A stretch of DNA of 59,865 bases, taken from the IMG/VR virus record IMGVR_UViG_3300034196_000123, positions 1 through 59,865 of that record. One strand, 5' to 3'. Source of the DNA: a virus. A program made the position numbers and the translations under genes. This document shows, piece by piece, positions 27,157-58,361 of the stretch (position 1 is the stretch's first letter; every line of letters starts with the position of its first letter). The notes beneath the pieces are model-generated. The model was given only the letters and a program-made list of their open reading frames with translations, was not told where the DNA came from and searched no databases.

Positions 27157-27897
27157 CTACTCCGCGGCGATCTGGTAGACGAGCTGGTACCGCTCCGACG
27201 ACATGACCATCCGATTCACCTCGACCGCCCGGTCGCCGGCGTACGCCACGCGGGTCACCTCGAGGACGGGGTAGGCGGCGGGCAGCTGCAGGTGCTCGGC
27301 CTCCCGCGGCCGCGGTGGTCGCGCCGCCACCAGCTCGCTGTAGTGGGTGAGCGTCCACCCGGCCTCTTCGACGCGGGCGTACATCCCGCCGGGGCCGGTG
27401 TCGGTCTGCTCCAGGTGCGCGGCTTCGGCGACGTCCACGGGGATCCAGCTGGTGGCCAGCTGCACGACCTCGGCGTCGGCGCGCATGATGCGCTCGCGGA
27501 CGGCGACGTCGGTGCCGGGCGCGACGTCCAGGAGCGGCGCGACGTCGACCGGGACCGTCTGCCGGAACGTCTTCACGGTGACCGCCGGCGCCCAGCCGCC
27601 GGTCCGGGCGTCGCTCATGAACGTTCCGCGGCCGGCTGCGCGCTCGGCGGCGCTGAGGCGGTTGCGGGCGAGCCTGGTGACGGGCTTGCGCTCGCTGACG
27701 AACCAGCCGCGGCCGGACACGCTGAACACGAGGCCTTCGGCGCGCAGTTGGTCGACGGCGTTCTGGATCGTGTTCCTCGCGACCCCGAACCGGGCCATGA
27801 GCTGGGTGCCGGACGGCAGGGGAGTGCCGGGACCGGCGTCGGTGACCTCGCGGCGGAGGGTGTCGGCGATCTCGACCCATGGGCGGCGCACTGGCAT
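27157..27897 (-). CDS. GntR-family transcriptional regulator (HutC/UTRA type)
   Basis: A 246-residue protein. Residues 8-75 form the GntR winged helix (WVEIADTLRREVTDAGPGTPLPSGTQLMARFGVARNTIQNAVDQL...SGRGWFV). Residues about 95-240 are a UTRA effector domain (ARERIMRADAEVVQLATSWIP-type stretch, YPVLEVTRVAYAGDRAVEVNRMVMSS). It is minus-strand, and a TAGCAT -10 (27909-27904) lies so close that the mRNA may be leaderless. Two operator palindromes are upstream. GntR proteins such as KorSA/TraR control transfer in actinobacterial integrative plasmids. Confidence 0.85.
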   Translation of the reverse strand: MPVRRPWVEIADTLRREVTDAGPGTPLPSGTQLMARFGVARNTIQNAVDQLRAEGLVFSVSGRGWFVSERKPVTRLARNRLSAAERAAGRGTFMSDARTGGWAPAVTVKTFRQTVPVDVAPLLDVAPGTDVAVRERIMRADAEVVQLATSWIPVDVAEAAHLEQTDTGPGGMYARVEEAGWTLTHYSELVAARPPRPREAEHLQLPAAYPVLEVTRVAYAGDRAVEVNRMVMSSERYQLVYQIAAE

Positions 27898-27912
27898 GCC
27901 GCCATGCTACGC

Positions 27913-27930
27913 GACCTACTTGCATAGGTC
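27913..27930. promoter_or_regulatory. GntR operator 1
   Basis: Palindrome GACCTACTTGCATAGGTC: 6-bp arms GACCTA/TAGGTC around CTTGCA. It overlaps the predicted promoter spacer of the GntR gene. Confidence 0.7.
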
Positions 27931-27958
27931 ACCGGGCTGACCTACGGTGATCCTGCGT

Positions 27959-27976
27959 GAGCTACTTGCATAGCTC
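27959..27976. promoter_or_regulatory. GntR operator 2
   Basis: Palindrome GAGCTACTTGCATAGCTC with the same central CTTGCA, 46 bp from operator 1. It lies at the promoter end of the divergent gene starting at 28,050. Confidence 0.7.
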
Positions 27977-28049
27977 ACCCTCGATCGGCGGAGCGCGCCG
28001 TCCACCCCGAGTCGCGGCGCGCTCCGCCCACCACGGCCAGGGGGGCCTC

Positions 28050-28457
28050 ATGTCGCTACGCCGCATCCAGGTGCTGGTCGTCCCTGCCGAACGTGAGCTG
28101 CCTGCCCGCCTGGTCCACATCGACGACAGTGCCGCCGCGATCAGCGATGCGATCGGCGTTGACCGGTTCGATGACCTGCTCGTCGGCTCGACGCCGCTGG
28201 GCATGTACACGATCTACGGGAGCGGCTCGGGTGGCCCGCCGCTCAACCTCGCTGCCGGGGCGCTCGTCGGCGCCCTGGGGCACTCCGGCCCCGACGTCCG
28301 GCGCCGGATGCGCGGCGACGTCCTGGTGTCCGGGCTGGACGCCTCGGGCATCGTCGACATCGACGTGCCGGCGTCCGTGCTGGCCGCCGCGGCGTCGGCG
28401 GGGGTGCCGATCGTCGCCGGTGGGGTGCTGCTGCGCCCGGCCGACCCGTCTGCCTGA
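28050..28457 (+). CDS. DUF3846-like protein
   Basis: A 135-residue protein, ATG after GGGGGCC. The pattern LRRIQVLVVPAERELPARLVHI...GMYTIYGSGSGGPPLNLAAGALVGALG...MRGDVLVSGLDASGIVDIDVP matches the small actinobacterial DUF3846 proteins that often carry a conserved Y/N-rich middle and a GDVxVxG motif. Role unknown. It is divergent from the GntR gene and shares its operators, so it is probably a controlled target. Confidence 0.6.
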   Translation: MSLRRIQVLVVPAERELPARLVHIDDSAAAISDAIGVDRFDDLLVGSTPLGMYTIYGSGSGGPPLNLAAGALVGALGHSGPDVRRRMRGDVLVSGLDASGIVDIDVPASVLAAAASAGVPIVAGGVLLRPADPSA

Positions 28458-28496
28458 GGGTCGGGGGAGGGCCCGAGAGCACGACATAACGGGCCT

Positions 28497-28524
28497 ACCT
28501 GACATAATCATAATTATCGGTGCA
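28497..28524 (-). other. dif-like XerC/XerD site
   Basis: Read on the minus strand, the arms CCGATAAT (28520-28513) and TATGTCAGGT (28506-28497) flank a 6-base centre. The known actinobacterial dif consensus has CCGATAAT, six variable bases and TATGTCAAGT, so both arms match with one mismatch. A further GACATAA half-site lies at 28,483-28,489. Confidence 0.6.
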
Positions 28525-28885
28525 GAACGGACGATCTTCAGGGGGAGCCGGAGCGGCTGTCCACAGCCCCTTCTGGTCCCCTTGGATCAGGGCCGGCCGT
28601 GCGCCACGATGGGCGGGCCGGCCCGGGCCGGTCACCCTCGGCGCCGCCTCCCCGCCCACCTGGCGGGGCGTGGCGCCCTCGGAAGCACAGCCCGGACCGG
28701 TCCCGTGCCAGACTGATCGTCGATCGCGCTGCGCGAGGTGCAGGGCAGCGCAGGGCCTGGTGGCGATGCGACACGTCACGGCAGCGCGGTCTGCGGGTCC
28801 CGGTGCATGGGAGCAGCAACGTGCGCGCCGTTCGAGTCGGAGGTCGGGACCCGCGTCCCCTCCCGGTCGTCGTGCCTGGAGCGAC

Positions 28886-28917
28886 GAACCGCCCCGGGCG
28901 GCTACCCGGGGCGGTTC
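28886..28917. terminator. Perfect 13-bp hairpin
   Basis: GAACCGCCCCGGG (28886-28898) pairs fully with CCCGGGGCGGTTC (28905-28917), loop 6 nt, followed by TTCC. It likely ends transcripts from the 28,050 gene before attP. Confidence 0.75.
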
Positions 28918-28974
28918 TTCCAGCGCTGACGAAGCTGGGGAGAGATCCATCGTAGCGGCGCCGGCGGCAGCTGC

Positions 28975-28996
28975 TGGCAGCCGTTGTGGCAGCCGT
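28975..28996 (+). repeat. Left integrase arm-type repeats
   Basis: TGGCAGCCGT occurs at 28,975-28,984 and 28,987-28,996, a 12-base period. The same pattern occurs right of the core at 29,193 and, degenerate, at 29,205. Confidence 0.6.
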
Positions 28997-29101
28997 GCGG
29001 TGGGACGCTGTGGTTCGCTGTGGTACTCCCCCACGAGTCGATCATGCGTTGACCAGGCGTTTGGCACGCTGCGCTACATGGTGGGACGGGTTGCCCGGGC
29101 T

Positions 29102-29145
29102 CTTTTAATCCGCGGGCTGAGGGTTCGATCCCCTCGGGGCCCACC
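29102..29145 (+). other. attP core: 3' half of tRNA-Lys
   Basis: The sequence reproduces a tRNA-Lys(UUU) from the anticodon loop CTTTTAA (29102-29108), through the T-stem and loop GAGGG-TTCGATC-CCCTC (29119-29135) to the acceptor strand GGGGCCC plus A (29136-29143) and CC. The 5' half of the tRNA is absent, so this is an attachment core that restores the host tRNA after integration. Confidence 0.85.
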
Positions 29146-29192
29146 GCTTGACCTGGCAGTATGCGCCCCTGCATAGATCATTTAGGGGGGTG

Positions 29193-29214
29193 TGGCAGCC
29201 GTTCTGGCAGCTCC
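29193..29214 (+). repeat. Right integrase arm-type repeats
   Basis: TGGCAGCCGT (29193-29202) and TGGCAGCTCC (29205-29214), again with a 12-base period and in the same direction as the left pair. Confidence 0.55.
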
Positions 29215-29297
29215 TGGGACGATCTACCGTCGAACTCCACCGCTGTAGTTCGGCCGCGTTCATCGAACATGCGTTCGACGGCTGCCATCCTGGGGTC

Positions 29298-29621
29298 ATG
29301 GCGGGAGGCGCGGACCGACGAGCGGGACAGGACGGCCCCGTCCTCGATCGGCTCGGCCTGAGGGTACCCGCCGCCCCCGAGTCGGCGCCGGCTGCCCTGC
29401 CGGACGGCGGCGCGCACCGGCAGGAGTGGCCCACCCTCAAGCACGTCTGGGTCGCCGACGCCCCCGAGGTCCCCGGCCGCTGGCCGGGCATCCTCATGGG
29501 CTGGGCCCGGGACGACCGCGGCTGGCTCGGACGTGTCTCCCTGGCCGCCGAGGGCCGTGAGGGCATCGTCACGATGACCCTGTGGGTCCGCGCCGAGCAC
29601 CTGGTCCCCCTCGACCAGTGA
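29298..29621 (+). CDS. Hypothetical protein between attP and integrase
   Basis: A 107-residue protein from ATG 29298 (an upstream extension to 29,148 would run through the attP arm and is not preferred). The centre reads KHVWVADAPEVPGRWPGILMGWARDDRGWLGRVS, an actinobacterial small-protein pattern often found beside integrase genes and of unknown function. It converges with the integrase gene. Confidence 0.6.
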   Translation: MAGGADRRAGQDGPVLDRLGLRVPAAPESAPAALPDGGAHRQEWPTLKHVWVADAPEVPGRWPGILMGWARDDRGWLGRVSLAAEGREGIVTMTLWVRAEHLVPLDQ

Positions 29622-29673
29622 CCGCCCTGGTGGCGCAGGCCTGCCCGCCCCAAGTCTGGGCGGGCCCGCGCCA

Positions 29674-31014
29674 TCAGGCCGGGACCAGCGCCGCGGCGGG
29701 CGGGTCCTCGCCGTCATCCTCGCCGCGCTCGCCGGCGCCCTCGCCGGCGGTCTGGCCGGCATCCGGCGTGGGCGGGACGCCGTCCGGCCACAGCAGCTCG
29801 TCGACCCGCTTGGCGTTGGTGTCGAGCATCCCCGGGAGCAGGTGCTGGTACGTGTCCTGCGTCAGCTGGGTCTGGGAGTGCCCCAGCTGCTCCTTGACCT
29901 CGCGCACGTCGGCCTTCAGGAACAGCAGCAGCGACGCGGTGGTGTGCCGCAGGTCGTGGACCCGCAGGTCCGACTCGATCGGGTCATCGACGACGCTGCC
30001 GTCGCGCATCGTCCACGACTTCCCGGTACCCGAGGTCCGGACGCCCGCCTTGACGGCGAGGTCACGCAGGTTCTGCCAGTCCCGACGGGCGTCCAGCGGG
30101 TAACCACCGCGCTGGGCGAACACCAGGTCGGCGATCTCCTCCCAGCCGGGCGGCTGCCAGCCCTTCCAGTTCGCGCCGTCCTCGAGTTTCGCTACGCGCT
30201 GGGCGAGCCGGAGCCGCTTCAGGATGGGCAGCAGGTGCGCGGGGATGGGCAGGCGCCGGATCCCGGCGGTGGACTTCGGCGGAGTCAGCACGAGGTTCTG
30301 CCCACGGGGGCGGCCTCGTAGGCGGGTCAGTGACCGCCGGACCGTCAGGACGCCGGCGTCCAGGTCGACGTCGTCCCACAGCAGGCCGAGAACCTCGCCC
30401 TGGCGCAGGCCGAGGGCGATGGCGATGCCCCACCGGGCGTGCGCCGCGTCGTCGGTGCAGGCGCCCAGCAGGCGACGGCACTCCTCCACGGTCAGTGGCA
30501 TGACTTCCTCCCGGACGGCCGCGGGTGGCTGGACGAGCTTGGCGACGTTCATGCTGACTCGCTGCCGCTGCCAGGCGACCTGCAGGGCGCGGGCGAGGAT
30601 GCGGTGGCACTGCAGGATGGACGTCTCGGACAGCCCCGCCTCGCGCATCGTCGTGTGCAGCTGCTCGATGTGCTCGGGGGTCAGCTTGATCAGCCGGTGC
30701 CGTCCCACGTTCGGGATGATCCAGTTCCGGAGGTAGGAGCGGTACCCGTCGATGGTGCGGGGCCGGACCTTCGTCGGGGCGATGTTGTCGATCCAGTGGG
30801 TGAGCCACTGCTCGACGGTCGTCTTCGGGTCGTGGAGGGTCCCCCCGCGGGCCAGGACCGACTGTGCTTCCTGCAGCTTGGCCTTGGCCTCGGCGCGGTT
30901 CTTGGCCCGCAGGTACTTGCGGATCGGCTTGCCGTCGGCTGTCCACCCGACGTGGATCTGGACGCGCCATCCGGCGCCGCTCTTGTAGATCGAGCCTTCA
31001 CCCGGGGATCGCAT
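29674..31014 (-). CDS. int: Tyrosine integrase
   Basis: A 446-residue tyrosine recombinase. An N-terminal arm-binding domain (GSIYKSGAGWRVQIHVGW, residues 8-60) and a core-binding SAM-like domain (65-165) precede the catalytic domain with Arg204 (LGLRQGEVLGLLW), HDLRH (353-357), H379 in LGHS and the nucleophile Tyr389 (QDTYQHL). All catalytic residues are present. It should recombine attP (29,102-29,145) with the host tRNA-Lys gene. The gene points toward attP and lies one base after the stop of the upstream small gene. Confidence 0.95.
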   Translation of the reverse strand: MRSPGEGSIYKSGAGWRVQIHVGWTADGKPIRKYLRAKNRAEAKAKLQEAQSVLARGGTLHDPKTTVEQWLTHWIDNIAPTKVRPRTIDGYRSYLRNWIIPNVGRHRLIKLTPEHIEQLHTTMREAGLSETSILQCHRILARALQVAWQRQRVSMNVAKLVQPPAAVREEVMPLTVEECRRLLGACTDDAAHARWGIAIALGLRQGEVLGLLWDDVDLDAGVLTVRRSLTRLRGRPRGQNLVLTPPKSTAGIRRLPIPAHLLPILKRLRLAQRVAKLEDGANWKGWQPPGWEEIADLVFAQRGGYPLDARRDWQNLRDLAVKAGVRTSGTGKSWTMRDGSVVDDPIESDLRVHDLRHTTASLLLFLKADVREVKEQLGHSQTQLTQDTYQHLLPGMLDTNAKRVDELLWPDGVPPTPDAGQTAGEGAGERGEDDGEDPPAAALVPA

Positions 31015-31469: not shown

Positions 31470-31910
31470 TCAGGAACTGGTGGGCCCCTCGGTGCTGGTG
31501 CGTGGTGATGTCGCCGCGCGCAGCCGCGCGAGCTCCAGGAGTGCGTCGACCAGGCTGAGGACCAGTTGCCGGTGTGGCTCCAGGAGGCCGTCGGTCCCGG
31601 GTGGCAGTAGCGCGACGAACAGGCTGTCGACGTCACCGGTGTCCAGGCCGCGTTGCTTCGCGATCGTGTTCCCGCACGCGAGGTAGACGGTCCACCAGTG
31701 GACCCGCAGTGCCTGCGCGATCCCCATGATCGTGTCCGTGTCCGGAGCGGAGTCGAACGGGTCGTCGCTGGTGGCGAGTTGCTGCCAGCGTGGGGCACTC
31801 GGCTTCCCGCCGGCGGCGCGGGTGAGGTCGGCATATGTGCGTTCCCTCCCCTCTTGGACCCGCTGGGCGGTGATCAGCTCACGGATCGTGATGCCGTGTT
31901 TGGGTGCCAC
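31470..31910 (-). CDS. Putative immunity repressor (HTH)
   Basis: A 146-residue protein. Residues 5-70 form an XRE-like layout (ITIRELITAQRVQEGRERTYADLTRAAGGKPSAPRWQQLAT...DTDTIMGIAQAL), common in actinobacterial regulators; the C-terminal half is helical and may dimerise. It is divergent from the Cro-like gene at 32,193, with an operator-rich 280-bp interval between, which is the classical repressor position. Confidence 0.65.
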   Translation of the reverse strand: MAPKHGITIRELITAQRVQEGRERTYADLTRAAGGKPSAPRWQQLATSDDPFDSAPDTDTIMGIAQALRVHWWTVYLACGNTIAKQRGLDTGDVDSLFVALLPPGTDGLLEPHRQLVLSLVDALLELARLRAATSPRTSTEGPTSS

Positions 31911-32192: not shown

Positions 32193-32504
32193 GTGAAAAG
32201 CAACCGATCAAGATGGCCAAAGGGGACGTACATGTTGCTCCGATCGGGCGAGGCGCTGAAGGAGGCGATAGTCGCCGCCGGACTCCGGCAGGTCGACGTC
32301 GCCCGAAGCGCCAACGTCCACCACAGCTTCGTCAGCAACCTGATCTCCGGGCGGGAGCGCACCTGCTCGCCCACGACCGCGGCACGCATCGCGGAGGTCG
32401 TCCGCAAGCCCCTCCCCGACCTCTTCGACGCCAAGGGCGCTAGTCGGGTTAGGCGCTGCGACTCATGCGGTCAGCCGGTCGTGCAGGCGGGATCCGCCGC
32501 ATGA
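32193..32504 (+). CDS. Cro-like XRE regulator with C-terminal CxxC
   Basis: A 103-residue protein (GTG 32193, or ATG 32232). The helix-turn-helix reads GLRQVDVARSANVHHSFVSNLISGRERTCSP, followed by RIAEVVRKPLPDLFDAKG. A small C-terminal zinc-knuckle half (CDSCGQP) is present. Divergent from the putative repressor, so it is the expected first gene of the lytic direction. Confidence 0.75.
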   Translation: MKSNRSRWPKGTYMLLRSGEALKEAIVAAGLRQVDVARSANVHHSFVSNLISGRERTCSPTTAARIAEVVRKPLPDLFDAKGASRVRRCDSCGQPVVQAGSAA

Positions 32505-32752
32505 CCGCCCCCACCGCCGACGTCACCGAGTTGACTGCGGCTTTGCCCGCGGTCGACCGGATGCTCACCGTCGACGAGGTGACGGTGATCCTCCGCAAGT
32601 CGAGGACCACCGTCTACCGGCTCATGGCCAGTCACGGCCTGCCATACCGCTGCGTCGCCGGCGGCGACCGACGGGTCCCCGCCCCCGAGCTGCAGCGCTG
32701 GCTCGACACCCAGCCCGGCCCTCGGATGACCGGGCACCTGCGCGCGGTCTGA
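32501..32752 (+). CDS. Excisionase-like MerR/HTH_17 DNA-binding protein
   Basis: An 83-residue protein whose ATG overlaps the previous stop (ATGA). RMLTVDEVTVILRKSRTTVYRLMASHGLPYRCVAGGDRRVPAPELQRWLD is a winged MerR-type helix-turn-helix of the excisionase/BldC class. In this context it may be Xis for the tyrosine integrase, or a regulator in the early switch. The integrase is on the other strand. Confidence 0.7.
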   Translation: MTAPTADVTELTAALPAVDRMLTVDEVTVILRKSRTTVYRLMASHGLPYRCVAGGDRRVPAPELQRWLDTQPGPRMTGHLRAV

Positions 32753-35886: not shown

Positions 35887-35913
35887 ATGAGCGAGAACAG
35901 GCCACCACGGTGA
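35887..35913 (+). CDS. Eight-residue leader peptide
   Basis: ATG 35887 behind a good Shine-Dalgarno (TGGAGGA) opens an eight-codon frame MSENRPPR ending in TGA 35911-35913. The GTG of the replication initiator (35910) overlaps this stop in GTGA. The initiator has no ribosome-binding site of its own at the right distance, so its translation is probably coupled to the leader. Confidence 0.5.
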   Translation: MSENRPPR

Positions 35914-36971
35914 GCCTGGAGGCCCTGGCGTGGGCGTTCGCCCAGAACCCCGGGGACAGCACCCGCAAGCTGGTGCTCTTGGCCTACGCCGACGTCGCGC
36001 AACGGGACGGGCAGGCGTACCTGCTGACGGAGCAGGTCGCCGAGACGGCGCTGTGCGCGGGCCGGACCGCGGGTCGGCACATCACCGCGCTGATCGCCGA
36101 TGGGTACATGCGTGAGGGTGACCAGAGCCTGATCAGCGACAAGATCCCGCGACGGTTCCGGCCGATCGTGTACCAGCTCGCGATGTCCGATGAGCAGCGC
36201 GAGGCGTGGGCGGCGACGCCGGTGACCGGTCGGCGGGCCCTGATGGTGGCCGGCGGGGCTCGCGGTGCCGAGTGGACGAACCGGACGAAGTCGGGCGCGA
36301 CCGAGGATGGTGGGGCGCCACCGGTGGCGCCTCACTCGTCGGACGGTGGGGCGCCACTGGTGGCGCCCCACGAAAACCCTCCCGAACCGGACGGAAATGG
36401 ACACGATGGGGCGCCAAGTGGGGCGCCATCCGTGGCGCCCAAGAACCTAAGAACCAAAGAACCAAACCACCACCACCACCGCGACGACGCGAACGTCCAC
36501 GAACTGGTGGTGGTGGAAGCCCTCCCGGACCACCCCGACCCCGCTGCGATCGCCTCGCAGATCGTGGCGGCCCTCCCCCGCCCGATCGCCCGGCACATCC
36601 ACGGCCCGACCCTGCGCACCGAGGCCACCCGCCTCGCCGCCCTCGGCTGGACCCCCGAGCAGCTCGCCGCCTGGACCCGGGAGGCGAACTGGGCCGGCGC
36701 CGGCCCGGCGCTCGTCACGTCTCGGCTGCGCGGCATCGACGGCCCGCCCCTACCCGCCCCGGTCCGGGCGCCCGTCCAGCTGACCCGCCTGTGCCCCGAC
36801 TGCGTCGCCAGCGGCGCCCAGGAGCCCTCGACCATCCCGGTCGGGGCCGTCGCCTGCCCCGAGTGCTCCGAGGGCCACCAGCGCCTCGACAAGGCCCGCA
36901 AGGGCACCCTCCGGGCCGAGGCCGCCGCCGCTCGAGCTGCCCGGGTCGCGCAGGTTGCGCCCGCGACCTAG
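35910..36971 (+). CDS. Replication initiator (winged-helix, lambda-O/DnaD-like organisation)
   Basis: A 353-residue GTG-start protein. Residues 5-75 form a winged helix (RKLVLLAYADVAQRDGQAYLLTEQVAETALCAGRTAGRHITALI). A linker (130-200) contains Gly/Ala/Pro repeats encoded by GGCGCC-rich DNA. The C-terminal part is helical (IVAALPRPIARHIHGPTL...WTPEQLAAWTREANWAG) and ends with a zinc ribbon, CPDC and CPEC (about 292-320). N-terminal DNA binding plus C-terminal helicase-loader contact is the usual layout. Confidence 0.75.
   Translation: MSLEALAWAFAQNPGDSTRKLVLLAYADVAQRDGQAYLLTEQVAETALCAGRTAGRHITALIADGYMREGDQSLISDKIPRRFRPIVYQLAMSDEQREAWAATPVTGRRALMVAGGARGAEWTNRTKSGATEDGGAPPVAPHSSDGGAPLVAPHENPPEPDGNGHDGAPSGAPSVAPKNLRTKEPNHHHHRDDANVHELVVVEALPDHPDPAAIASQIVAALPRPIARHIHGPTLRTEATRLAALGWTPEQLAAWTREANWAGAGPALVTSRLRGIDGPPLPAPVRAPVQLTRLCPDCVASGAQEPSTIPVGAVACPECSEGHQRLDKARKGTLRAEAAAARAARVAQVAPAT
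36309..36480 (+). other. Probable phage replication origin inside initiator gene
   Basis: Three repeat units (36,309-36,332; 36,345-36,370; 36,406-36,440) contain seven GGCGCC palindromes within 130 bases, each unit TGGGGCGCCA...GTGGCGCC. Directly after is an A-rich, C/A-only tract (36,441-36,480, AAGAACCTAAGAACCAAAG...) that would melt easily. Iterons plus unwinding element inside the initiator gene is the lambda ori/O arrangement. Confidence 0.55.
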
Positions 36972-38521: not shown

Positions 38522-38874
38522 TGGCCGCCGTCCACGTTCCCTGCCCCGCGTGCGGGCAGGACGTCATCGAGATCACCGCCGAGTACCAGACCGGCACCGG
38601 GTCACGGCACGCGATGCCCGGCGTCCAGTACGTCGACCCCGACCCGTCCCCAGTGACCGGCGGGATCGTCCTGCCCGCCGACGGCCCCTGGACCGTCGTG
38701 CGGCCCTCCGTGGCCGCTGACGCCCCGGTCCGGCACCGGTTCCACCGCTGCCCGAACGCCCCCGCCGAGCCCCGCGCAGTCCGGGCACCCAAGCCCGCAC
38801 CGCCCCGCCAGCTCCCGCCCGACCTCGACGTCCCCGACATCACCGCGCCCCGCTACGGAAGGAACGCCCCGTGA
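38521..38874 (+). CDS. Zinc-ribbon hypothetical protein
   Basis: A 117-residue protein starting at ATG that overlaps the upstream TGA. PCPACGQDVIEIT gives a CxxC near residue 8; a second potential ligand pair is weaker (HRFHRC near 90). Pro-rich C-terminus. It overlaps ParB by four bases, so is part of that operon. Confidence 0.6.
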   Translation: MAAVHVPCPACGQDVIEITAEYQTGTGSRHAMPGVQYVDPDPSPVTGGIVLPADGPWTVVRPSVAADAPVRHRFHRCPNAPAEPRAVRAPKPAPPRQLPPDLDVPDITAPRYGRNAP

Positions 38875-40619
38875 CCCTCGCCCCGCCCGCCCCCGACCCC
38901 CACGCCGGCCTCGGCGTCCTCATGCCCATCGACCAGATCAAGCCCAACGCGCGCAACGTCCGCCGGGACCTCGGCGACGTCACCGAGCTGGCCGACTCGA
39001 TCCGCGAGGTCGGCGTCCTGCAGCCCTGCACCGTCGCCCCGTCCACGACCGACCCGGTGCAGTGCCCGGAGTGCGACACCCTGTTCCCCGTCGACCAGCT
39101 CGTCGGCGGAGCCTTTCCGAGGCACTGGCGCTCGCCGCAGAGCCGGCGCAACTGCCGCGCGGGCACCGAGGCCGCCCCGATCACCTACGACCTGATCGCC
39201 GGGCACCGGCGCCTCGCCGCGTCCGTCCAGGCCGGCCACACCCACCTGCCGTGCGTCATCCGCGCCGACCTCACCGGCGTCGTGGACGTCACGGTCGCCA
39301 TGTTGTCGGAGAACCTGCACCGTGCCGACCTCTCCCCGATGGAGGAGGCCACCGCCTACGCGCAACTGCAGATCGCCGGCCTCGACGAGCAGACCATCGC
39401 CCGCCGCACCGGCCGGTCCCGCACCACCGTCGCCAGCCGCCTGAAGCTCATGGACCTCCCCGACCGGATGCAGGCCCGGGTCCACGAGCGGCAGATCACC
39501 CTGGACGAGGCCGCTGCCCTCGCCGAGTTCGCCGGCGACCCGGGGGCCCTCCGCGAACTGGAGCAGGCTGCCGGCACCCGCGACTGGCCCCACGCGCTGC
39601 GCCGGATGCGGGACAGCCGTGAGACCCGCCTGGAGCGGGAGCGGATGGTCGCCGATTTCGCTGCCCGCGGGTTCCGGGTCCTCGACAGCGGCGAGACGAG
39701 CGGGCTGTGGGAGCAGACGCTGCGCTCCCTCGACATCAGCGAGGACGACCACGCCCCGTGCGCCGGCCGCGCCGTGCACGTCACGCCGACCAACTTCGTC
39801 CAGAACTACTGCCTGGAGCCGTGGCTCCACGCCCCCGACCGGTTCCCCGACCCGGCCGCCCCGACCTACGACACCACGGCCCCAGCAGCCGGCGGCGACA
39901 CCACCGCCGCGACACAGCCGGCGCTGCCCACGGTCGCCCAGCAGGACGCCGAAGCCCAGGAACGCCGAGCCGCCGAGCAGGCCGAGGCCGCTGCGGCCGC
40001 GAAGGCCGCGTTCGCCGTCCGGCAGGAGTTCCTCGAGACCTTCTGCCGTGACCGCCGCCCGGTGCCCGCCGACCAGGGCGCGGCGGTGCTTCGGCACCTG
40101 CTCGACCTGCTGACCCGCGCCTACCTCGGCGAGGTCGTGATGCAGGACTGGCTCCACATCCTCACCGGCGAGGACGTGGCCGACGTGGACGACGACGCCG
40201 CCGAGACCAAGGTCCGGGCCATCGTCGCGGAGCGGGACCCGATCCGGGTGCTGCTCGCCGAGCTCGCGGTCGAGTCCGACCGGCTGGTGTACCCGGCGCA
40301 CTGGGGTCCGTCGCCGCTGGGCAGCCACCTGCCGTTCCTGCAGTCCCTGATCGCCGTGGGGTACGTGCCCTCGACGTGGGAGCAGGAGCGCATCGACGCG
40401 GCGCTCGCCTACCGCACCCGGGTGGAGTCGCCGGCGGTCGTGGACGTCCGCCTCCCCGAGCACGACGTCCCCGCCGACGTCGACCAGGCCGACAGCGACG
40501 ACGAGGCGACCTCCGGCACCTGCCGGGTGTGCTTCTGCACCGACGACGAGGCGTGCGACCCGCCGTGCTCCTGGGCCGACGCCGAGCACACCATCTGCAC
40601 CGCCTGCACGGCGGGCTGA
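38871..40619 (+). CDS. ParB-like protein with inserted zinc ribbon
   Basis: A 582-residue protein. The ParB/sulfiredoxin fold starts at PIDQIKPNARNVRRDLGDVTELADSIREVGVLQP (18-52); it is interrupted by a Cys-rich insert (PVQCPECDTLFP...NCRAG, 62-97) before DLIAGHRRLAASVQAGHTHLPCVI and a KorB-like helix-turn-helix (EEATAYAQLQIAGLDEQTIARRTGRSRTTVASRLKL). The C-terminal ~370 residues have a coiled coil and a final Cys cluster (CRVCFCTDDEACDPPCSW). It may act in partition or as a regulator/nuclease. Confidence 0.8.
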   Translation: MTLAPPAPDPHAGLGVLMPIDQIKPNARNVRRDLGDVTELADSIREVGVLQPCTVAPSTTDPVQCPECDTLFPVDQLVGGAFPRHWRSPQSRRNCRAGTEAAPITYDLIAGHRRLAASVQAGHTHLPCVIRADLTGVVDVTVAMLSENLHRADLSPMEEATAYAQLQIAGLDEQTIARRTGRSRTTVASRLKLMDLPDRMQARVHERQITLDEAAALAEFAGDPGALRELEQAAGTRDWPHALRRMRDSRETRLERERMVADFAARGFRVLDSGETSGLWEQTLRSLDISEDDHAPCAGRAVHVTPTNFVQNYCLEPWLHAPDRFPDPAAPTYDTTAPAAGGDTTAATQPALPTVAQQDAEAQERRAAEQAEAAAAAKAAFAVRQEFLETFCRDRRPVPADQGAAVLRHLLDLLTRAYLGEVVMQDWLHILTGEDVADVDDDAAETKVRAIVAERDPIRVLLAELAVESDRLVYPAHWGPSPLGSHLPFLQSLIAVGYVPSTWEQERIDAALAYRTRVESPAVVDVRLPEHDVPADVDQADSDDEATSGTCRVCFCTDDEACDPPCSWADAEHTICTACTAG

Positions 40620-56840: not shown

Positions 56841-58361
56841 GTGGCGCTGACCGCGTGGGCCGCGGCACGGCGCCGCTACCAGCCCGCACCCCGACGGTTC
56901 TCGAGCCCGTTGGAGTACGGGCGCGCGGTCATGCCCAAGATGGTCGTCACGCCGGCGCTGCAGCTCATCTCCGACGCCCTGGTGGCCGTCGAGGCGGGTG
57001 ACATCGACCGGCTGCTGGTGTCGATGCCCCCGCAGGAGGGCAAAAGCTCCACCGTCGACCGGCTGGGCATCGGGTGGGCGCTGAGCTGCCAGCCGCTGCT
57101 GCAGTGCGGCATCGCGTCGTACAGCGACCGCCTGGCGACCAGGTGGTCCAGGAGGATCCGCAACGACATCCAGGCCAGCAACCGCCGCGGCGGTGTCGAC
57201 CTCGGGCTGCAGCTGGCCCCGGACCAGTGGGCGGCGGACGACTGGCGCCTCGCGAACGGCATCGGCGGGGTCTACGCGGCGGGCATCGGGGGCCCGTGGT
57301 CGGGGTTCCCGCTCGACCGGCTGGTCGTGGACGACCCGCACAAGAACCGCAAGGAAGCCAACAGCACGATCATGCGGGACGCCGTGTACGACTGGTACAC
57401 GTCCGCGGGCACCGCGCGGCTGTCGGCCGCAGGCCGGATCGTGATGGTGATGACCCGGTGGCACTGGGACGACCTGGCGGCCCGGGTGCTCGACGCGGAC
57501 AAGGTCGGCCGATGGCACGTGATCAACATTCCGGCGCAGGCCGACCCGGAGATCGCCGACCCTGACCCCCTCGGCCGCACCCCCGGCGTCTACATGATCT
57601 CCGCGCAGGGGCGCACCGAGGAACAGTGGGAGAAGCGCAAGGAAGAGGCCGCGGAAGAGTGGACGCCCCTGTACCAGGGCGCCCCGGCCGACCCGGGGAA
57701 GAAGTTCTTCGACCTGAGCAAGATCCGCTGGTGGCACCTGTCCCGCGACGGCAAGCAGATCATCTGCGGGCCGCAGACGTGGAACCTGCACGACTGCTGG
57801 CGGTTCGCCACGGTGGACACCGCGAACACCGAGAAGGCGGGCAGCGACTTCACCGTCGTGTCCGCGTGGGCGATCCCCCCGGACGGGTCCCTCGTGCTCC
57901 TGGACGTCGCCCGGGAGCAGCTCAACGAGGACAAGCAGCTCGGCCTCGCGCGGCCCCTGGTGGAGCGGTGGGCCCTCGACGTCGTCTACGTCGAGGCCAG
58001 CATGCGCGGCACCCTGCTGGTCCGCCAGGCCGTCGCTGAGGGCTGGCACATCGAGGACCTGCACGCCGACCGGTCCAAGACGCTGCGCGCGGCGCCGGCG
58101 GCCCGGCTGGTCCGGCACGGCCGGGCATGGTTCCCCGCCGAGCACGAACACCTGATCGTGATCAAGAAGGAGATGAAGCAGTTCCCGGCCAGCAAGCACG
58201 ACGACTTCGTGGACACCTTCGGCTACGCGAGCCTCGTGCGGCACACCGACTGGGCGCCGCCGCTGACGGGCCGGCCCCCGGCATCGGACCCGGCGCTCGC
58301 CGAGCTGCGGGCCGCGACCCCCGACGCGGACGGGTTCGACCCGATGGACACGCCGTTCTGA
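56841..58361 (+). CDS. terL: Terminase large subunit
   Basis: A 506-residue GTG-start protein. ATPase: Walker A PPQEGKSST (63-71), Walker B RLVVDDPHKN (about 156-166). Nuclease: DTANTEKAGSDFTVVSAWA (about 328-346) and DDFVDTFGYA near 456-465, both with acidic catalytic residues. Deviant Walker A with QEGK is common in phage terminases. It drives DNA into the portal. Clear family identity. Confidence 0.92.
   Translation: MALTAWAAARRRYQPAPRRFSSPLEYGRAVMPKMVVTPALQLISDALVAVEAGDIDRLLVSMPPQEGKSSTVDRLGIGWALSCQPLLQCGIASYSDRLATRWSRRIRNDIQASNRRGGVDLGLQLAPDQWAADDWRLANGIGGVYAAGIGGPWSGFPLDRLVVDDPHKNRKEANSTIMRDAVYDWYTSAGTARLSAAGRIVMVMTRWHWDDLAARVLDADKVGRWHVINIPAQADPEIADPDPLGRTPGVYMISAQGRTEEQWEKRKEEAAEEWTPLYQGAPADPGKKFFDLSKIRWWHLSRDGKQIICGPQTWNLHDCWRFATVDTANTEKAGSDFTVVSAWAIPPDGSLVLLDVAREQLNEDKQLGLARPLVERWALDVVYVEASMRGTLLVRQAVAEGWHIEDLHADRSKTLRAAPAARLVRHGRAWFPAEHEHLIVIKKEMKQFPASKHDDFVDTFGYASLVRHTDWAPPLTGRPPASDPALAELRAATPDADGFDPMDTPF

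Follow-up and report, generated by a model that had tools for sequence, protein, structure and literature searches.

Already known are plasmid resolution sites for host XerCD, filamentous phages whose attP is dif-like, and phage-plasmids that have functions of the Xer type. The ColE1 site cer, like psi, is a plasmid multimer-resolution site that uses host XerCD, and on plasmids the usual bias of XerCD is towards resolution. Strand exchange by XerCD requires homology in the centre of the site, as established for other Xer systems. The Leptospira LE1-type record KF114877 carries a dif-like site, LE1 being presumably a plasmid prophage. In a review, cer is likewise given as a plasmid resolution site for host XerCD, dif2 of Vibrio cholerae is described as differing from dif1 mainly in a centre that resembles plasmid sites, and VGJphi is described as integrating even though its centre departs from that of dif1 at four positions, near the XerD side (PMC5357621). 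The chromosomal dif of Frankia alni is printed as CACGCCGATAATGCACATTATGTCAAGT in Kono et al. (2011; PMC3025954). The Bacillus phage-plasmid B83 is described as having Xer-type multimer resolution with its own XerC/XerD-family recombinases (PMC6669507).

The locus described here lies on an IMG/VR virus contig of 59,865 bases (the window, meaning this whole stretch), which has 73% G+C and is without end repeats. The gene layout is that of a temperate tailed phage, running left to right from the tape measure gene (16847) to the terminase near the right end. The tape measure gene is followed by a GntR/UTRA regulator, a small gene without relatives, the dif-like site, attP and the integrase; after the integrase come repressor-like, excisionase-like and exonuclease-like genes, an O-like replication initiator, a ParB-like gene and the terminase. 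The features are as follows.

27157 to 27897, minus strand: GntR/UTRA transcriptional regulator (protein family match; operator-like repeats in front)
28050 to 28457, plus strand: hypothetical gene adjoining the dif-like site, no relatives found (also scanned as ORF 27957-28457)
28483 to 28489, minus strand: extra XerD-type half-site TTATGTC, in direct orientation, 18 bp from the copy in the dif-like site
28497 to 28524, minus strand: dif-like Xer site, 28 bp (pattern and profile matches; core shared with NC_019339)
28497 to 28507, minus strand: XerD-type arm, 11 bp, TTATGTCAGGT
28508 to 28513, minus strand: centre of the site, 6 bp, TTATGA
28514 to 28524, minus strand: XerC-type arm, 11 bp, TGCACCGATAA
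28975 to 28993, plus strand: left attP arm-type repeat, TGGCAGC-N5-TGGCAGC (role suggested by position)
29102 to 29145, plus strand: attP core, the 3' end of tRNA-Lys (aligns to annotated tRNA-Lys genes)
29193 to 29211, plus strand: right attP arm-type repeat (role suggested by position)
29674 to 31014, minus strand: tyrosine integrase, Phage_int_SAM_3 and Phage_integrase (far below the XerC and XerD cut-offs)
31470 to 31910, minus strand: repressor-like protein (phrog_12831)
32465 to 32752, plus strand: excisionase-like HTH_17 protein (phrog_66)
35910 to 36971, plus strand: replication initiation protein, O-like (weak match)
38871 to 40619, plus strand: ParB-like protein (family match; record without a ParA (PF13614) match)
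56841 to 58361, plus strand: terminase large subunit (phage relatives at about 37% identity)

Read on the minus strand from 28524 to 28497, the full 28-mer is TGCACCGATAA-TTATGA-TTATGTCAGGT in an 11-6-11 layout, with the two 11-bp arms of a dif site, inverted around a 6-bp centre and typical of the phylum. The first-pass annotation had placed a dif-like site with actinobacterial arms at 28497-28524; these bounds are exact for the complete site, and the arms agree with the printed F. alni dif at 8/11 (XerC-type) and 10/11 (XerD-type) positions, against 2/6 in the centre. The pattern CCGATAA-N6-TTATGTCA, searched with up to 3 mismatches, has one match in the window, at 28497-28524 and with 0 mismatches, and dinucleotide shuffles (n=100) gave a mean of 0.04 matches at the same tolerance. 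When the profile check that the annotation had called for was made, with a 28-position arm profile weighted by hand and a general consensus for the outer arms, the site scored 38.4 bits and the runner-up position in the window 7.8, far above chance given that the best scores in simulated Markov sequences (n=400, 60 kb each) had a mean of 4.5 and a maximum of 14.9. Both the scores and the 0.04 expected matches therefore indicate a genuine dif-like sequence. The site is intergenic and single copy in the record, and its inner arm bases are intact (15/15) in a genome whose 73% G+C makes such AT-rich sequence uncommon.

The centre sets the phage site apart from chromosomal dif. TTATGA shares just its first and last base with TGCACA, from the printed F. 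alni sequence, and with TGAACA, from Nonomuraea, these being the two chromosomal centres compared; that of the phage's own host may differ. In a genome collection of 84,980 species, the 21-bp core including the centre was present in one contig, a Saprospiraceae MAG in which the outer arms are unrelated; about 0.1 chance matches were expected by estimate.

The closest matches are instead dif sites borne on plasmids, which the three roles suggested in the first-pass annotation did not take into account (resolution of episomal phage multimers, alternative integration at host dif, or a scar of past capture). The identical 21-bp core, centre included, is carried by the circular 103-kb plasmid pJ349-116 of Arthrobacter sp. 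J3.49 (NC_019339); identity between phage and plasmid ends at the core, and the outside flanks are unrelated. Gordonia amicalis pCP86 and two Cryobacterium plasmids have the centre TAATGA (core one base different); the centre is TTGTGA on an Arthrobacter FW305-BF8 plasmid and TTATGA, with a single mismatch in the arms, on Corynebacterium glyciniphilum pCgly1. The phage centre is thus plasmid-like and unlike that of chromosomal dif, as judged on plasmids recruited by similarity and on two chromosomal centres, one of them the printed F. alni sequence. With TGTACA as its centre, a dif consensus query found 86 plasmid records, most often from Gordonia (11), followed by Rhodococcus (8), Leptospira (8), Arthrobacter (7) and Lactobacillus (7); as the plasmid records were selected for dif likeness, their centres are a biased sample. 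At 37 of the 40 plasmid places listed of the 86, no annotated gene lay under the match, by a gene table that is incomplete.

Eighteen matching records were fetched and 17, excluding the window, were searchable whole. Exactly one site (at most 1 mismatch) was found in 16 of the 17, as in the window, and Gordonia pJH63-1 had two in the same orientation. A PF00589 match was absent in 8/17 records; if functional, the site in these would have to rely on recombinases of the host. Multimer resolution via host XerCD predicts such an arrangement, with a single site on each replicon and in many cases no recombinase of its own. As the records were picked for having a site, these figures say nothing on prevalence. 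Dif-like sites of this kind, present on many plasmids of actinobacteria, are little described in the literature found.

Other genes recur near the plasmid sites. In 4 of the 18 fetched stretches (L163, L164, L165 and L168, all from actinobacterial plasmids) the site has a tyrosine recombinase gene no more than about 250 bp away, and this gene adjoins an HTH gene, as if the two formed a recurring dif-recombinase cassette. On the Arthrobacter plasmid (NC_019339; L148, 1-4021) genes for TnsA, a Mu-type transposase and TniB are found about 160 bp from the dif-like site, and on a Gordonia plasmid (NC_016907; L166, 1501-3026) a Tn7-like TnsA gene is found about 1.5 kb from it. Dif-adjacent transposon targeting is a possible explanation for these Tn7-like genes.

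The phage also has a conventional integration module. The segment 29102-29145 aligns with tRNA-Lys genes annotated in mycobacteriophages, and direct repeats at 28975-28993 and 29193-29211 flank this core, resembling integrase arm sites in their position. Together with the integrase at 29674-31014, the alignment and the TGGCAGC repeats support the tRNA-Lys attP and dedicated tyrosine integrase proposed earlier. ARAGORN detected no complete tRNA gene in this stretch, as expected when a phage carries just the tRNA 3' end, and an Rfam search of 27900-29700 returned chance-level matches only. The dif-like site is outside the attP structure, separated by 578 bp from the tRNA core and by about 450 bp from the nearer arm-type repeat. 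With a score of 57.6, where the XerD cut-off is 329.6, the integrase is by this measure not a Xer protein. Host XerCD would be the likely agent if the dif-like site recombines. Between the site and attP, at 28883-28920, there is a strong 16-bp hairpin (GACGAACCGCCCCGGG / CCCGGGGCGGTTCTTC) that resembles a terminator. On the other side, two 30-bp direct repeats of the CTACTTGCATAG type (27904-27979) precede the GntR/UTRA gene and are likely its operators.

The terminase has its nearest phage relatives, among the matches listed, in phages that infect Arthrobacter (about 37% identity), making an actinobacterial host likely. Searches of viral contigs gave 21 relatives of the integrase, 3 of the ParB-like protein, 1 of the GntR regulator and 0 of the terminase, none of them close; the GntR relative (L176, 47% identity) has another gene neighbourhood and no dif-like site within the 1.7 kb read. 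Of possible signs of a circular replicon, only the ParB-like protein and the weakly matching O-like protein are present; ParA (PF13614) was not found in the record, and the proteins scanned included none recognisable as a plasmid replicon. With these two missing and a full integration cassette present (integrase, excisionase-like protein and attP), a lasting plasmid state is not supported.

Sites of this type are scarce among phages. The consensus query (centre TGTACA) matched 3 of 50,697 phage records, namely a member of the Microviridae, a Leptospira phage (20 exact bases) and a Pectobacterium phage (17 bases), and the window's own site matched 43, none of them covering >80% of the query. 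Six Bifidobacterium phages (OP172700-OP172705) each have two places like the window site (90.9% over 22 bases, E about 3), which may be due to chance or belong to a different recombination system. In IMG/VR, a generic pattern with 15 fixed bases gave at least 119 stretches, mostly about the number estimated by chance and many of them in long reading frames; these were not used as evidence, and for this reason a strict dif pattern was used instead. Besides the window's record, the strict pattern was found in 7 of 2.9 million contigs, each with a single perfect core. Their centres (G001-G007: TGTATA, TGTGCA, TACACA, TCTCTA, TGTATA, TAGTTA and TACCGA) do not include TTATGA, and the exact core and centre, trimmed to 19 bases, were absent from all other viral contigs searched. 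By a single terminase model, a match was found in G001 and in none of the other six. G004 has a ParA gene about 1.4 kb from its site, and G007 carries, near its site, a serine recombinase together with a Xer-like tyrosine recombinase that falls short of the XerC and XerD cut-offs. In three viral contigs (L036, L078 and L151) the XerD arm is followed, about 10-14 bp downstream, by the sequence GTTGT...TGCCCTG, which may be an accessory motif.

We give about an even chance to the reading that this is a plasmid-type dif site acting in cis to resolve circular multimers, used by host XerC/XerD and not by the phage integrase. Of the roles suggested earlier, multimer resolution is the best supported, by the core identity with a plasmid, the single site per record and the many records without a recombinase, while integration at chromosomal dif is weakened by the centre. 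Circular phage DNA, whether before integration, after excision or during circle replication, or tandem prophages could be turned into dimers by homologous recombination, and host XerCD could then recombine two directly repeated copies of the site and restore monomers. Without a lasting plasmid state, the site would act on short-lived circles or on tandem prophages. An ordinary dif in a tRNA-Lys prophage would risk recombination with chromosomal dif, a risk that a divergent centre may avoid: phage copies would recombine with each other and not with chromosomal dif, and the prophage would be spared deletions or inversions between itself and dif.

Sequences next to the site were also compared. 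The TTATGTC at 28483-28489 is the sole other copy in the window besides the one in the dif-like site, and in three Gordonia plasmids (L149, L162 and L167) dif is followed, 34 bp downstream, by an XerD-like half-site (ATGTCAGG) in inverted orientation. Such extra half-sites have shuffle p values of about 0.01-0.04 each with 23 sites tested, the search pattern having missed L168, L172 and L175. The KOPS-like motif GGGNAGGG is oriented towards the site in 19 of 24 cases (Fisher p 0.011), but its net excess was equalled in 4% of 150 local-composition simulations and 6 of 54 motifs of the same composition were more polar; being no better than marginal against simulations, this polarity was set aside as support.

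That the site is instead a relic, which arrived with captured plasmid or host DNA and has no present role, we consider unlikely. Its intergenic position next to a gene for which no relatives were found, in a place where extra genes are common in temperate phages, would suit a relic, as would the confinement of the plasmid identity to the core and the rarity of the site in viral contigs (7 in 2.9 million by the strict pattern). A relic would, however, sit less well with arms that have not decayed (15/15 inner bases at 73% G+C) and with the extra half-site adjoining the site (28483-28489), and the single site present speaks against a scar.

Integration by host XerCD at chromosomal dif, with the site as an IMEX-like attP for alternative lysogeny, appears improbable. 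Such attP sites are known in filamentous phages, where VGJphi tolerates four central differences according to the review (PMC5357621), and G001-G006, some of them fragments, have neither a PF00589 nor a PF07508 match, as would fit Xer users. The present phage nevertheless comes with an integrase and attP of its own, its centre agrees with the chromosomal centres TGCACA (as printed for F. alni) and TGAACA at no more than the two end positions, and the core occurs in just the one Saprospiraceae contig of the genome collection.

There is a similarly small chance that XerCD fuses the phage with plasmids bearing the same site, producing cointegrates or a second landing site. The core and centre identical to those of pJ349-116 would allow this; against it, no junction was seen, and XerCD on plasmids is usually biased towards resolution. 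It is equally doubtful that the phage has two addresses, its integrase directing it to tRNA-Lys and host XerCD to plasmids of the same centre, with the centre shielding it from chromosomal dif; if this were true, compatible centres would form an address code governing the fusion of circular replicons within a cell. Lastly, a promoter with coincidental dif likeness, prompted by a sigma-70-like match on the plus strand (ACGACA-16-CATAAT, 28481-28508, 9/12, 0.0 expected in a 1-kb stretch) that overlaps the site, is very improbable, as this match could arise from the XerD arm itself and a promoter leaves the 15/15 arm bases with exact spacing and the plasmid-site identity unexplained.

Resolution of multimers by host XerCD, the preferred reading, places the site among several described systems. 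Like the chromosomal dif of F. alni, as printed (PMC3025954), it is 28 bp long with an 11-6-11 layout, identical inner arms (CCGATAA and TTATGTCA) and 10/11 of the XerD arm shared; it differs in the centre (2/6), in an unlike outer XerC arm and in being phage-borne. The sites of pJ349-116, pCP86 and the Cryobacterium plasmids have a core that is identical or one base off, and they are also intergenic and mostly one per record, but they sit on plasmids and in unrelated flanks. With cer and psi it would share the proposed function; unlike them, it has no cer-type accessory sequence that could be identified, and its centre is 6 bp as in dif. It also differs from the dif modules of Acinetobacter plasmids, where two or more inverted sites surround genes, in that a single site is present (up to 3 mismatches).

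No description of dif sites in integrase-bearing actinophages was found in the titles and abstracts searched, and, as far as the literature found shows, it is a new combination for a tailed phage with an integrase and a tRNA attP to carry a plasmid-type dif. Two systems that are usually apart, an integrase with its tRNA attP and a host-XerCD resolution site, are joined on one temperate phage. If the site is functional, multimers would be a problem for integrating phages too, which would have taken over the remedy used by plasmids, and the 6-bp centre would keep plasmid, phage and chromosome sites from recombining with one another.

Among phages, the IMEX phages CTXphi, VGJphi and TLCphi likewise carry a dif-like site for which host XerCD is the presumed recombinase. 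They have no integrase and the site is their attP, whereas here both an integrase (29674-31014) and a tRNA-Lys attP are present. Bacillus B83 (PMC6669507) is also a phage with a resolution function, while the integrase of the present phage is an ordinary one and its record gave no ParA match. The Leptospira LE1-type record KF114877 is likewise a phage carrying a site of this type. Such a site is unusual among viral contigs, yet it is a variant of known Xer-site use.
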